Part shown: in pieces, positions 12,701 through 34,008 of the stretch
Layout of the letters: the number at the start of each line of letters is the position of its first letter
How positions within the stretch are numbered: position 1 is the stretch's first letter
Assembly: GCA_913062845.1 (NCBI GenBank)
Contig: CAJXVZ010000030.1
Span: 1-35,607, forward strand
DNA: 35,607 nt
From: an uncultured Psychroflexus sp.
GTDB taxonomy: Bacteria > Bacteroidota > Bacteroidia > Flavobacteriales > Flavobacteriaceae
Direction: 5' to 3'
The notes under the pieces: generated by a model
Told to the model about the DNA's origin: nothing
The model's database searches: none
The model's input: the letters and a program-made list of their open reading frames with translations, nothing else
Translations under genes and position numbers: made by a program

Positions 12701-13202
12701 TTGTATTGACGTCCTTAGATTTTACAAGACTTTCTACTATACTGGATTGATTTAGCTCCGGAGTTTCATAATCTGATTGCTCTACCAAATCATTGATCAT
12801 ACCTTGCAAACCCATTTCTCTTCCATCATCCGGTGAATAGATTCTGGTAATTCCATAATCCATAAGTTCTTTGATCTCTTCTTCCAGGATGACGCCGCCA
12901 CCGCCGCCAAATATTTTTATGTGACCGGCTCCTTTTTCATTGAGTAAATCGAACATGTACTTAAAATACTCATTATGTCCACCCTGATAAGACGTCATTG
13001 CAATAGCATTGGCATCTTCCTGAATAGCGCAATTAACAACCTCATCTACACTACGATCATGCCCGAGATGAATGACTTCAACACCGGTAGATTGAATAAT
13101 TCTTCTCATGATATTAATAGCCGCATCATGTCCGTCAAAAAGTGAAGCCGCTGTGACTATCCTTACTTTATGTCTGGGTTTGTAAACTTCTGATTTTTGC
13201 AT
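9705..13202 (-). CDS. icmF: Fused B12-dependent acyl-CoA mutase with GTPase chaperone (isobutyryl-CoA mutase, IcmF type)
   Basis: An 1165-residue three-part enzyme. Residues 1-140 are a B12-binding domain with FDGHDAAI (lower-ligand H25) and the glycine-rich IFGGGGGVI. Residues about 195-400 are a MeaB-like G-protein with Walker [19 protein letters not shown] and NKFD (342-345). Residues about 560-1100 are the mutase TIM barrel, with [21 protein letters not shown] in overlapping segments and the motif [11 protein letters not shown]. At the two positions that set substrate choice it has F600 and Q814 (QAQNTCIF), where methylmalonyl-CoA mutases carry Tyr and Arg. This points to isobutyryl/butyryl-CoA rather than methylmalonyl-CoA. 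The G-protein domain gates cofactor loading. It is monocistronic, with a -7 box TAATTTTG at 13235-13242. Confidence 0.93.
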
Positions 13203-13234
13203 ATGTATTTAAGATTTATCAAAAAAAAGCCTTG

Positions 13235-13242
13235 CAAAATTA
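13235..13242 (-). promoter_or_regulatory. -7 promoter box for icmF
   Basis: The minus strand reads TAATTTTG (TAnnTTTG) 32 bases upstream of the ATG. No clear -33 TTG at 17-19 bases was found. Confidence 0.45.
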
Positions 13243-13469
13243 AGAATTTGCAAATTAATAATGCCTAATGCAATGTGAAAGTATAGGATTTATAAATACA
13301 GATTAAAATTCAATATCACTTTCATAATAAATTGTCATTGAAATGATTAAAACATTTAATGCTTAATGATAATAGTGTTAACATTTTATTTTGAATTATT
13401 TGATTAAATTAGTGCCACTTTTAAATACAAAATATGGTATAAAATTACTTAACTTTAAATCTTTACATT

Positions 13470-13667
13470 ATGGCAAGAGCAATGTTTGAATACACTAAAG
13501 AAGTTCTTCGAAAAGTGTCATTTGATGTGAAATTGTTTTGCAAGGAAGTTGAAAAGGCAGTTAAAAGATTATTGCCTCATGAATTGGACGAGTTGAGGAT
13601 TTTTATTGAGAATTTAATATCTGAAAATCCGCAACTTAACAAATGCAGGATTTATTTTAGTGCATGA
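13470..13667 (+). CDS. Small conserved-looking basic protein, function unknown
   Basis: A 65-residue protein rich in charged residues and predicted mostly helical: MARAMFEYTKEVLRKVSFD, then EVEKAVKRLLPHELDELRIF and a C-terminal CRIYFSA. It has no signal peptide or membrane span. I do not recognise a characterised family, but it has the marks of a real gene: ATG start, coding-like codon use, a long upstream region, and its own strong terminator immediately downstream. A TAACTTTA string just upstream (13450-13457) is one base off the -7 consensus. It stands alone, so context gives no role. Confidence 0.7.
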   Translation: MARAMFEYTKEVLRKVSFDVKLFCKEVEKAVKRLLPHELDELRIFIENLISENPQLNKCRIYFSA

Positions 13668-13675
13668 TTAGTTTT

Positions 13676-13703
13676 AAAACCGCTTTTTTTAAGCGGTTTT
13701 TTT
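13676..13703 (+). terminator. Rho-independent terminator after the 65-residue gene
   Basis: Perfect 10-bp stem AAAACCGCTT (13676-13685) / AAGCGGTTTT (13691-13700) with a 5-T loop, continuing into further T bases. Confidence 0.88.
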
Positions 13704-13720
13704 ATACCTTATAAATAACG

Positions 13721-13728
13721 TATTTTTG
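13721..13728 (+). promoter_or_regulatory. -7 promoter box for the FMN reductase-pabB unit
   Basis: TATTTTTG matches TAnnTTTG 18 bases before the ATG at 13747. Confidence 0.45.
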
Positions 13729-13746
13729 TATCATTAATTTTAAAGA

Positions 13747-14277
13747 ATGAAAAAAATATTGGCTTTTGCGGGTTCAAATAGTTCTACATCCATCAATAAG
13801 GAATTATTGGAATATACTATAAACAAAATCCCGAATAGTGTTTCATTGATTGATCTTATAGATTTTGAAGCACCCATGTATAGCATTGACCAAGAAAATG
13901 ACAAAGGAATACCAGAAAATATCATAAAACTAAGTCAAAAAATAAGAAATACGGATGTACTTATCATTACTGTAAATGAGCACAATGGAAGTGCTTCCGC
14001 CTTTTTTAAAAACCATATAGACTGGTTAAGCAGACATGACAGGAACTTTCTAAAAAATACAAAAGTAGCTCTCCTGAGCACATCGCCTGGCCGTGGTGGC
14101 GCAAAAATGGCTTTGAAATGGGCAGCAGAGGTCTTACCGAGATTTGGAGCTGAGATCATCTGCGAATTTTCTTTGGCCTCTTTCAATCATGCCTACTCTA
14201 AGGAAAAAGGCATTTTTGATCCGGATCAAAAGCAGGTATTTGATGCTGCAATTAAACAACTTTCTGCTCATATTTAA
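13747..14277 (+). CDS. NAD(P)H-dependent FMN reductase family protein
   Basis: A 176-residue flavodoxin-like fold protein. The phosphate-binding start is ILAFAGSNSSTSINKELL, then a segment TVNEHNGSASAFFKNHIDWL in the position where the family has its FMN-contacting E-x-N-G-S/x-P loop, and LLSTSPGRGGAKMAL later. Such enzymes reduce free or bound FMN, quinones or azo compounds with NAD(P)H; the physiological substrate is not readable here. It is cytoplasmic with no signal. It is separated by only 7 bases from the TTG start of pabB and shares its direction, so they are probably co-transcribed, although no functional link is evident. Confidence 0.87.
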   Translation: MKKILAFAGSNSSTSINKELLEYTINKIPNSVSLIDLIDFEAPMYSIDQENDKGIPENIIKLSQKIRNTDVLIITVNEHNGSASAFFKNHIDWLSRHDRNFLKNTKVALLSTSPGRGGAKMALKWAAEVLPRFGAEIICEFSLASFNHAYSKEKGIFDPDQKQVFDAAIKQLSAHI

Positions 14278-14284
14278 CTTTGTA

Positions 14285-31400: not shown

Positions 31401-32771
31401 TTACCTTATTTCATCTATTAGATTATCAATCTCTGCCCTTAATTGATTGTCTGATAATGATTTGTATTTTGATAAATTTGATTTTTTGATTTTATTACTA
31501 ATAGTAATTTTGTATTCAAAATCATCCTTGCTTACAAACTTTGCCAATAAAGAAAGGTTTGCGTCTAAATCATTTAAATTGACTTTCAAAACTCTGCGAT
31601 CTTCCAAAGCATTAAGTTCTTCTTGAATTTTTTGATTTACATAGTACCAATACCATGCACATTTTGATGTTTGAGATAATTTACTCCATTTTTGTGAACT
31701 CATTACACCTAATCTATCGGCTTGCAACCTGTATTTTGCCCAATCATGTTTATTTACCTCAGGATATTCATTTACTATATACCAATCTCTGCTCAGCATT
31801 GATTTTACAGTTGAATAAATATCTCTTTTAAGGTGTATAAATTTAGAATTCGGAAAATATGTTTCTAAATACGGTACTAGATTCCAAAGTCTTTGATCTG
31901 AGTGAATGATAATTTGATCTTCGGAAAGTGGCCAGATTTTATTTTTAAAAATATCATCTAATTCACTGTAATACAAATCTTTTTTCGATGGAAAATAAGC
32001 TAAATCAGTGCTAATTCTTATCAATTGATGAATATCCTCATGGTATGCTTTACACTTGGGATTTTGATTTAAAATATCAACAATTGAAGTTGTCCCTGAT
32101 CGACCGGTTCCTAAAACAAATACTATATTAGCTTCTTTTTTATCTTCATATTTATATTTGAATTGTTTTATTTCTTCTTTTTTCAAAAGCCTTCCATTAA
32201 TTCCCCCATATCGGTTTTTGTTAATTAAGTCTTTGTAATGATAATCATCTCTGGATTTAATACTTACAAGGGAGTCATTACCAACGATTTCCCTGGGCTG
32301 GATGTTTCTATTTACCACAGAACCCATACCTACAATAGATCCCTCACCAATGGTGACGCCAGGTAGTATTGAAACATTCATACCAATCCATACATTAGCT
32401 GCAATTCTCACAGGTTTATAGATGGTTGAATCATCATACGGTAATGCACTTGAAGTGTAATTGTGATTTACTGTATATATTGTAACATTCCTTGATATAT
32501 GTGTATTATCTCCTATTATTAGACCTCCTTCCCCCGCGATATAAATATTATTGCCGATATGGACATTATTGCCAATGATAATTTTACTATGGCCTCTGAA
32601 AGTATGCTGATCACCATTTAGCCTAAAATTATAACCTACACTCTGAAATTTCTCTATTAATTGTAGTTTTTTATTTTTTAATCTATCGTGTTTGTATTTT
32701 TCTAATTCATTAAAGATTCTACTAATAATGATTCGAATACCTTTTTTTATAAGTCTTTTAATTTGATTCAT
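31401..32771 (-). CDS. Bifunctional hexapeptide O-acetyltransferase - PAPS-type sulfotransferase fusion
   Basis: A 456-residue two-domain protein. Residues about 55-170 are a left-handed beta-helix acyltransferase of the maltose/NodL type: repeated hexapeptide turns (IIIGNNVHIGNNIYI), the catalytic-type histidine in YTVNHNYTS (H103) and VWIGMNVSILPGVTIGEGS. Residues about 212-430 are a sulfotransferase: the 5'-phosphosulfate loop VLGTGRSGTTSIVDIL (219-234) and the 3'-phosphate motif FIHLKRDIYSTVKSM (R316, S320, S324). The N-terminal 50 residues are basic with a short hydrophobic patch and may touch the membrane. It would decorate a glycan with acetyl and sulfate groups in the cytoplasm. It overlaps wzt by 14 bases, so the glycan exported by that system is the likely substrate. 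It is markedly AT-rich compared with hisS. Confidence 0.85.
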   Translation of the reverse strand: MNQIKRLIKKGIRIIISRIFNELEKYKHDRLKNKKLQLIEKFQSVGYNFRLNGDQHTFRGHSKIIIGNNVHIGNNIYIAGEGGLIIGDNTHISRNVTIYTVNHNYTSSALPYDDSTIYKPVRIAANVWIGMNVSILPGVTIGEGSIVGMGSVVNRNIQPREIVGNDSLVSIKSRDDYHYKDLINKNRYGGINGRLLKKEEIKQFKYKYEDKKEANIVFVLGTGRSGTTSIVDILNQNPKCKAYHEDIHQLIRISTDLAYFPSKKDLYYSELDDIFKNKIWPLSEDQIIIHSDQRLWNLVPYLETYFPNSKFIHLKRDIYSTVKSMLSRDWYIVNEYPEVNKHDWAKYRLQADRLGVMSSQKWSKLSQTSKCAWYWYYVNQKIQEELNALEDRRVLKVNLNDLDANLSLLAKFVSKDDFEYKITISNKIKKSNLSKYKSLSDNQLRAEIDNLIDEIR

Positions 32772-34008
32772 ACCAATTGTAATCTACATAAAAGCCCTTT
32801 CGCTTTCCTGGTAACTTACCTGTGCCATAAAAATCACCTTTTTCTGTTCGAATGTGGCCAATACCTTTTTCGTTTTGAATCATAATTTTTTTATGATGTA
32901 CAGCTATATTATAAGTATAAGTCCCTTGACTCAGGGGCCACTTATTGATTTCAAGGTAAGCAGTCCCTTCCTTTTCTTGAACTATAAAATCAATGGTGTC
33001 ACTTCTGCATGCGAAAAGAAAATTCATAAACTCATCAAAAAAACCAACTGAGAGGGATAATTCTTGCAAATTAGGATTTGAGTACTTTGTCTCTAAGATT
33101 ACTTTTTGACCGCTCATCACTCGATTAATTTTTTTAAAATTTTCATCTAAAAACATAATCTGCGTAATTCCAACCTTTACCTCATTTTCACTTAAATAAT
33201 TTATTTGACCAGAAATAGAATTAGATAAGTAAAAATCTATACCCTCATTAACACCGCCTTCAAATGAGACTTTACCGTTATCAATAACCATCAGATTATT
33301 GCACAAATTTTTTATGGCTCCCATATCATGACTGACAAACAACACCGTTCTGCCACCAGTCCCGGAAATGTCTTTCATCTTGCCAAGGGCTTTTTTTTGA
33401 AATTCGGCATCGCCTACGGCAAGTACTTCATCGATAACCAATATATCTGGCTCGAGATGTGCGGCCACGGCAAAAGCCAGACGAACACGCATTCCTGAAG
33501 AATAACGTTTTACTGGAGTATCAATATACATTTCACAACCGGAAAATTCTATAATCTCTTGTTCCTTGGATTTTATTTCGGCTTTGGTCATACCAAGAAT
33601 GGCACCATTTAGAAAAATGTTTTCTCTACCAGTCAATTCCGGATGAAAGCCTGTCCCAACTTCCAAAAGAGAGGCTATTCTGCCTTTCGTCTTGATTTCA
33701 CCGGTAGTGGGTAAGGTCACCCGGGATAATAGTTTCAGTAATGTAGATTTACCAGCACCATTTTTACCGATTATGCCTAAAACTTCGCCTTGTTGAACCT
33801 CAAAATTAATGTCTTTTAGCGCCCAGACATAATTTTCTTTAGCAGATTGACTTCGATCGTTGACAGCACCAACTTTGAGATAAGGATCCTCTTTTCCTCT
33901 GACCTTATGCCACCATCGGTTGAGATCATGGCTTAAAGTCCCTGTACCTACAAGCCCAAGCCGGTATTGTTTGGAGATGTTTGATGCTTTAAGTATGATA
34001 TTGGACAT
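32758..34008 (-). CDS. Wzt-like polysaccharide/O-antigen ABC exporter ATPase with C-terminal glycan-binding domain
   Basis: A 416-residue ATPase. Residues 1-255 are an ABC domain: Walker A GKNGAGKST (81-89), signature YSSGMRVRLAFAVA (169-182), Walker B ILVIDEVLAVGD (189-200), H-loop H227 in FVSHDMG, plus the polysaccharide-exporter insert RWWHKVRGKEDPYLKVG. Residues about 275-416 are a separate beta-rich Wzt-C-type domain, which in the family recognises the terminal modification of the glycan before export. The ABC half is about 40-48% GC in sampled lines, whereas the C-terminal half is about 20-33%, so the C-domain looks exchanged. It overlaps the acetyl/sulfotransferase fusion by 14 bases. 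No Wzm permease gene is adjacent in the window. Confidence 0.9.
   Translation of the reverse strand: MSNIILKASNISKQYRLGLVGTGTLSHDLNRWWHKVRGKEDPYLKVGAVNDRSQSAKENYVWALKDINFEVQQGEVLGIIGKNGAGKSTLLKLLSRVTLPTTGEIKTKGRIASLLEVGTGFHPELTGRENIFLNGAILGMTKAEIKSKEQEIIEFSGCEMYIDTPVKRYSSGMRVRLAFAVAAHLEPDILVIDEVLAVGDAEFQKKALGKMKDISGTGGRTVLFVSHDMGAIKNLCNNLMVIDNGKVSFEGGVNEGIDFYLSNSISGQINYLSENEVKVGITQIMFLDENFKKINRVMSGQKVILETKYSNPNLQELSLSVGFFDEFMNFLFACRSDTIDFIVQEKEGTAYLEINKWPLSQGTYTYNIAVHHKKIMIQNEKGIGHIRTEKGDFYGTGKLPGKRKGFYVDYNWYESN

Follow-up and report, generated by a model that had tools for sequence, protein, structure and literature searches.

A recurrent acetyltransferase-sulfotransferase fusion encoded beside wzt and its possible role in marking polysaccharides for export

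The caps described for polysaccharides of the Wzm-Wzt pathway are methyl, methylphosphate or Kdo groups that are read by the carbohydrate-binding domain (CBD) of Wzt (available part of PMC9445017). WbdD of Escherichia coli O9a is a trimeric kinase-methyltransferase that is required for export (PMC3482155, in extract), and the characterised chain terminators bear a coiled-coil ruler (PMC11231755, in extract). In the accessible portions of the cap literature, neither sulfate nor acetyl is described as part of a cap. A sulfotransferase gene directly after wzt is described for the wbsalmo cluster of Aeromonas salmonicida A450, where Wzt (ORF18) is followed by ORF19, a single-domain protein with a sulfotransferase domain; in the accessible portion of that article ORF19 is not read as a cap enzyme and no ORF19 mutant is listed (PMC4483657). 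In the accessible portion of PMC13390465, sulfotransferases occur as separate proteins only.

The window analysed here is the whole stretch of 35,607 nucleotides from an uncultured Psychroflexus sp. (GCA_913062845.1, contig CAJXVZ010000030.1). The gene directly after its wzt encodes a protein with an N-terminal hexapeptide O-acetyltransferase (AT) half and a C-terminal PAPS-type sulfotransferase (ST) half. Like WbdD, this fusion carries two non-sugar transferase activities (here predicted) in one protein of the Wzm-Wzt pathway, is linked to a Wzt with a CBD as WbdD-type terminators are, and may form a trimer, which has been demonstrated for WbdD and is expected for the AT half. It differs from WbdD by its predicted chemistry, acetyl plus sulfate, and by having no extended coiled-coil ruler in its structure model. 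No WbdD chain is found among the best 60 of the 63 PDB matches to the fusion. On the reading proposed below the fusion would act in the manner of WbdD; with neither a ruler nor a sequence relation to WbdD found, it was not classed as a WbdD-type terminator.

Each half also has relatives of its own. The AT half is shared with SACOL2570, LacA, Maa and WbbJ/WcaF, which are single-domain proteins, whereas the fusion adds a YGGxxGxxL tail and the ST half. Hexapeptide acetyltransferases are trimers. The ST half has its PAPS loop, R...S pair and fold in common with Sulfotransfer_3 and the tyrosylprotein sulfotransferases, but it sits behind an AT and in a bacterial polysaccharide locus. A pairing of the two chemistries is known from rhizobia, in which NodL acetylates and NodH sulfates the same glycolipid; these are separate genes of a different pathway from Wzm-Wzt export.

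Architecture of the fusion and of the adjoining Wzt

The fusion gene (table 1) is a stop-free frame of 456 codons that runs from 32771 to 31401 on the minus strand; plus-strand frame 1 contains many stops. The original prediction of a two-domain protein in a single frame is confirmed by this uninterrupted frame and by two Pfam families that score over their cut-offs, PF00132 (Hexapep, E = 1.1e-12, 47.5 bits against a cut-off of 27, best stretch at residues 121-155) and PF13469 (Sulfotransfer_3, E = 1.2e-9, 39.2 bits against a cut-off of 27, residues 217-327). Among PDB sequences, residues 30-176 match SACOL2570 and galactoside acetyltransferases (best E = 2.5e-20) and residues 208-330 weakly match tyrosylprotein sulfotransferase 2 (E = 0.0058). 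The top NCBIfam models, galactoside O-acetyltransferase, WbbJ and WcaF, all score well under their cut-offs, and the fusion falls far under the equivalog cut-offs of the galactoside/maltose O-acetyltransferases and of WbbJ/WcaF. The NHNY and VLGTGRSGTTS motifs are located where they had been predicted. From their roles in the respective families, we take His103 to be the catalytic residue of the AT, VLGTGRSGTTS to be the 5'-phosphosulfate loop and R316...S324 to be the 3'-phosphate contact. The YGGINGRLL tail is a mark of the AT subfamily and is also present in unfused relatives and in those fused to a kinase and a methyltransferase.

Table 1. Features of the fusion gene and of wzt in the window
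Feature	Position	Strand	Basis or remark
wzt, 416 aa, exporter ATPase with C-terminal CBD	32758..34008	minus	translation and Pfam
Wzt nucleotide-binding part, residues 1-262 as used in the comparisons	33223..34008	minus	40.7% GC
Wzt CBD	32761..33222	minus	31.8% GC; model matches A. aeolicus Wzt CBD
14 bases shared by the end of wzt and the beginning of the fusion gene	32758..32771	minus	exact
AT-ST fusion gene	31401..32771	minus	456 aa; frame, Pfam and PDB sequence matches
N-terminal helix, residues 2-38	32658..32768	minus	structure model and hydrophobic moment
Left-handed beta-helix acetyltransferase domain, about residues 48-165	32277..32630	minus	Pfam, NCBIfam and PDB matches
NHNY, residues 102-105, presumed catalytic His103	32457..32468	minus	H in 12/13 fusions
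Linker between domains, about residues 166-205	32157..32276	minus	low model confidence over most
YGGINGRLL tail, residues 188-196	32184..32210	minus	alignment of AT relatives
Sulfotransferase domain, residues 214-456	31404..32132	minus	Pfam and structure model
VLGTGRSGTTS, 5'-phosphosulfate loop (presumed), residues 219-229	32085..32117	minus	G223, R224 in 12/13
R316...S324, presumed 3'-phosphate contact	31800..31826	minus	each in 12/13

In a single-chain model of the fusion (mean pLDDT 74.8) the ST domain is predicted well, most of residues 156-202 is of low confidence (pLDDT below 50 at residues 156-176, 186-198 and 200-202) and the AT half scores low, perhaps because the trimer state was absent from the modelling. 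All 50 PDB chains listed by a structure search with this model are described as sulfotransferases (best E = 9.8e-8). The model contains no extended C-terminal helix or coiled coil, as judged from the model itself and not with a coiled-coil predictor. The N-terminal helix is positively charged and amphipathic in most fusion homologues (hydrophobic moment, no control run), and a contact with the membrane is possible.

The 14-base overlap with wzt is exactly as predicted. The encoded Wzt scores 29.0 bits against the Wzt_C family, under the cut-off of 30.4, and a search of PDB sequences with its CBD returned no chain up to E = 1. The CBD is recognised by its fold: its model (pLDDT 80.8) gives 12 PDB fold hits at E ≤ 0.001, all of them Wzt CBD or WzmWzt chains, including the Aquifex aeolicus Wzt CBD bound to the cap sugar 3-O-methylmannose (8dky, 8dku), with which sequence identity is low (15-20% in these alignments). 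The GC content drops from the Wzt ATPase part to the CBD (table 1) and to 29.8% in the fusion gene, as if a module border lay inside wzt.

No wzm adjoins the wzt of the window; the downstream genes on the strand, named by sight of their translations, are presumably a 157-aa gene, hisS, ddl and coaD. The sole ABC2_membrane match found in the same genome lies on another contig (C19), beside what we take by sight to be wza- and wzc-like genes. A single match is no proof of a single Wzm, since a similar search of this genome with PF13469 missed the window protein. Further sulfotransferase-family matches occur on contigs C88, C31, C68 and C103 (the last at the end of a short contig), and the Psychroflexus genome may make more than one sulfated product. 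APS kinase, which would supply PAPS, is encoded in this genome (G000, contig C13), as it is in all 14 fusion genomes and in the genome of locus L069, a relative described below; it is likewise present in 11 of 14 control genomes, and as the enzyme is common it gives weak support for PAPS supply. APS kinase was not found in the genome of a second such relative, L070, which has no ST half and whose genome may be incomplete.

Occurrence, conservation and neighbourhoods of the fusion

Overall, the AT-ST architecture was found in 15 proteins from 14 genomes of the Bacteroidota, Alphaproteobacteria and Verrucomicrobiota and of one MAG labelled Gammaproteobacteria (locus L060). These numbers are lower bounds, as every scan sampled genomes or was motif-seeded. 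A search of the family with the ST half identified frames of >400 aa in 3 out of 299 genomes: that of the window, G033 and Neptunitalea sp. Y10 (G244, locus L058). The Neptunitalea fusion is 50% identical to that of the window and has wzt directly upstream; the neighbouring genes, named by sight, are presumably wza-, wzc- and wzm-like. A contig scan seeded with a two-row alignment yielded 180 confirmed loci, 80 of which were examined with AT and ST HMMs (12 of them also gene by gene, the others by HMM screening only), and 11 of the 80 contain a single-frame fusion (L054-L062, L066 and L081). An AT profile (E ≤ 1e-38) matched 5 of 395 genomes in a phylum sample and the AT is fused in two of these, the window's genome and G983, in which the frame extends past the contig end. 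An order-wide ST search (395 genomes) gave 18 matches whose frames, the window's apart, measure 267-323 aa and could not encode the fusion, and a contig scan seeded with a single protein returned 28 stretches with no relative of the fusion among them. The named hosts further include Formosa algae (Flavobacteriaceae), Croceicoccus and Acuticoccus (Alphaproteobacteria) and Rubritalea (Verrucomicrobiota). In the 625-aa fusion of Acuticoccus yangtzensis (L081:6565-8442) the AT half is interrupted by a long low-complexity insert built of repeated motifs. The fusion is real and recurrent and, as far as was searched, undescribed: in agreement with the original prediction, to which no such architecture was known, neither an AT-ST fusion nor a sulfate cap came up in searches of the open-licence PMC literature.

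In other loci (L063, L064, L074 and L076) the AT and the ST are encoded by two adjacent genes. In L063 the pair follows wzt, and its two genes share a frame with in-frame stops between them; in L071 the AT is followed by an unlike ST, as judged by sight of its sequence. In phylogenetic trees the fused STs group with a split ST of the Pirellulaceae (support 90/88, a weak grouping in trees with many open forks), and the two ATs that are fused to a kinase and a methyltransferase pair with each other (99/93) beside unfused ATs. The simplest story would be a single fusion that spread across phyla and was split once; two origins would fit the trees as well.

Residue conservation was assessed in an alignment of 13 fusions (L081 and G983 were left out). 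H103, G223, R224, R316 and S324 are each retained in 12 of the 13; the predicted motif of R316 with S320-S324 holds for the R316...S324 pair, whereas position 320 is variable (serine in 4/13). Loss of catalytic residues in homologues had been named beforehand as evidence against the two-enzyme reading. Both centres are intact in 11 of the 13 fusions, and the two exceptions are near-neighbour genes of one genome, G033, that have lost opposite halves: copy 1 (L021:10179-11498) still has the AT and lacks the ST loop, and copy 2 (12940-14280 of the same locus) still has the ST and lacks the AT histidine. The two genes are separated by one flippase-like gene, and cysC-, cysD- and cysN-like genes lie immediately upstream of the pair. 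The opposite losses fit a need for both activities and are no proof of it.

The predicted tie to polysaccharide export is borne out by a wzt directly upstream of 8 of the 15 fusions, at gaps of -14 to +72 nt (the window, L047, L054, L055, L056, L057, L059 and G983). The remaining seven have no adjacent upstream wzt (L060, L061, L062, L066, L081 and both G033 copies), and at least four of these come after a flippase-like gene (L062, L066, L081 and the second G033 copy), a setting in which a Wzt cap reader is not expected.

The same AT subfamily is fused to a kinase and a methyltransferase instead of the ST in L069 (9845-11677) and L070 (147-1943). Both Pkinase and methyltransferase score over cut-off in L069; in L070 the methyltransferase does so, Pkinase is under its cut-off and RIO1 and APH are barely over theirs. 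The L069 gene starts 1 base past wzt and the L070 gene comes after a stretch that encodes the C-terminal end of a Wzt CBD. Judged by their domains, these two proteins would combine the enzyme kinds of WbdD in a different order and, as a further likeness to WbdD, they do so right after wzt; no WbdD chain is among the 38 PDB matches to the kinase-methyltransferase part of L070.

Wzt binding domains and the genes that follow them

The ATPase parts of eight Wzts are 59-85% identical to that of the window. Six fusion-linked Wzts share 43-56% identity in their CBDs, and only 28-35% with the CBDs of L057 and L069; L057 has this divergent CBD though its fusion is intact. A profile built from the six (A6) scores >200 bits in 2 out of 397 genomes of the family, exactly the two with a wzt-linked fusion, and 92.5 bits or less in the other 29 matching genomes. 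The fusion-linked Wzts that were not part of the profile reach 101.4 (L057) and 101.0 bits (G983), a small margin over the 92.5-bit ceiling.

The gene after wzt was classified for Wzts without these fusions, taken from 20 of the 28 remaining A6-matching genomes (that of L069 was excluded) and from 20 places of a PF14524 search that had a match in 66 out of 199 genomes. L242 and L256 were dropped (no Wzt ORF >300 bits in the HMM search), leaving 38 of 40 Wzts. In 33 of the 38 the next gene overlaps wzt or starts at most 20 bases away. By Pfam class, 28 of the 38 next genes encode an enzyme that transfers a group other than a sugar: sulfotransferase (10), methyltransferase (9, two under cut-off), pyruvyl transferase (4), hexapeptide (4) or kinase (1). 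The others are nitroreductase (2), epimerase (1), GT56 (1) and proteins of no family (6). The GT2 family PF00535 is absent from all 38 next genes; it is found in at least 11 of 38 second genes among the families listed (25 of 41) and in 18 of 36 third genes.

For pairwise comparison the 38 Wzts were combined with seven linked to AT-ST fusions and with L069 (46 Wzts; L054 and L063, with a partial Wzt, and L070 were left out). Next genes are homologous in 70 out of 1035 pairs. CBD identity is 31.8% in these pairs versus 18.8% in the others, at an ATPase-part identity of 75.1 versus 75.5%; for the 38 non-fusion Wzts (24 homologous pairs) the values are 37.7 versus 18.6% for the CBD and 80.9 versus 76.4% for the ATPase part. 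The excess of CBD identity over a regression on the ATPase part was reached by none of 5000 label permutations in either set. CBD identity correlates with similarity of the next gene at 0.52 (0/3000 permutations as high), of the second gene at 0.34 (0/3000), of the third gene at 0.19 (3/3000) and of the gene upstream of wzt (position -1) at 0.20 (15/3000). The covariation peaks at the first gene yet extends beyond it, so co-inheritance of linked DNA contributes. Co-inheritance could also account for the pattern, given that the second gene correlates too and that the ATPase part is likewise more alike in the homologous non-fusion pairs.

All 46 Wzts have a CBD of lower GC content than their ATPase part, and the next gene is close to the CBD in this respect (means of 39.5, 30.8 and 30.9% for ATPase part, CBD and next gene). 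Third-position GC changes in the same direction (31.6, 22.8 and 24.9%), and amino-acid make-up accounts for part of the difference. As far as sequence comparison goes, the tracking of the CBD by the next gene points to an export-related terminal modification.

Proposed role of the fusion and alternative explanations

We propose, at a probability of about 0.5, that the fusion writes an acetyl/sulfate mark, probably at the non-reducing end, and that its Wzt takes this mark as a ticket for export. The fusion would act as a PAPS-dependent O-sulfotransferase and an acetyl-CoA-dependent O-acetyltransferase on a glycan exported by Wzm-Wzt, most likely in the cytoplasm and at the non-reducing end of the lipid-linked chain. 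The mark would halt chain growth and be recognised by the CBD of the Wzt encoded just upstream, which would license export. Fusion and CBD would be a matched writer and reader, swapped as a pair behind a Wzt ATPase part that stays conserved. For the wzt-linked fusions this is the best-supported reading, at about even odds. The original prediction is supported in part: the two-domain protein and the tie to export hold, and acetyl and sulfate may go on one glycan. Capping is not established, because 7 of the 15 fusions have no adjacent wzt and a WbdD-type ruler is absent.

It is possible, though less likely, that the fusion instead places O-acetyl and O-sulfate groups on internal residues of the repeat unit and takes no part in termination or export; its adjacency to wzt would then be a clustering of modification genes. 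The fusions away from wzt, several of them behind flippase-like genes, would suit such a decorating enzyme, as would the missing ruler and the loci with AT and ST as separate neighbours; it is harder to reconcile with a CBD whose strongest covariation is with the next gene, ahead of the second, third and upstream ones, and with a kinase-methyltransferase alternative that occupies the same place after wzt. An unlikely explanation is that the ST works alone as an enzyme and the AT half is a trimer-forming scaffold or an acceptor binder. The trimers of WbdD and of the hexapeptide acetyltransferases, and the G033 copy with an intact ST and no AT histidine, lend this idea some appeal, but 12 of the 13 aligned fusions retain the histidine, and in the other G033 copy the AT persists without a functional ST loop, which would be senseless for a pure scaffold. 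The G033 pair represents a natural test of whether both activities must stay joined. The chance that an assembly or annotation error joined two genes, a concern of the original prediction to which the separate AT and ST neighbours of other genomes might lend colour, is negligible: an assembly join at the domain border was rejected since the same single-frame architecture recurs in 13 other genomes from different projects and unrelated assemblies, that of Neptunitalea with wzt directly upstream, and the fused STs form a cluster in the tree that includes a single split pair.

If the cap-writer reading of the fusion is true, sulfation with acetylation joins the short list of chain-end signals that govern polysaccharide export. 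A tentative generalisation, to which we give somewhat less than an even chance, is that the Wzt CBD of flavobacteria and the gene immediately behind wzt make up an exchangeable cassette of reader and writer, of which the AT-ST fusion would be the acetyl/sulfate version. Sulfo-, acetyl-, methyl-, pyruvyl- and phospho-type enzymes would then write distinct chain-end marks, each read by a matching CBD. The adjoining gene would predict what a Wzt CBD recognises, cap recognition could be tested within a single bacterial family on a large number of such pairs, and a swapped pair should redirect export, which makes a use in glycoengineering possible.

Two nitroreductase-family proteins of about 360 aa directly follow wzt (L201:5926-7008 and L204:5599-6690) behind CBDs that are 59% identical; such a protein would be an unexpected candidate for a chain-end enzyme. 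Other next genes encode further composite proteins: a radical SAM domain joined to a pyruvyl transferase (L254:2677-4854), a hexapeptide protein with a weak GT1 match (L247:2424-3878) and a kinase-domain protein of 734 aa (L193:4578-6779).
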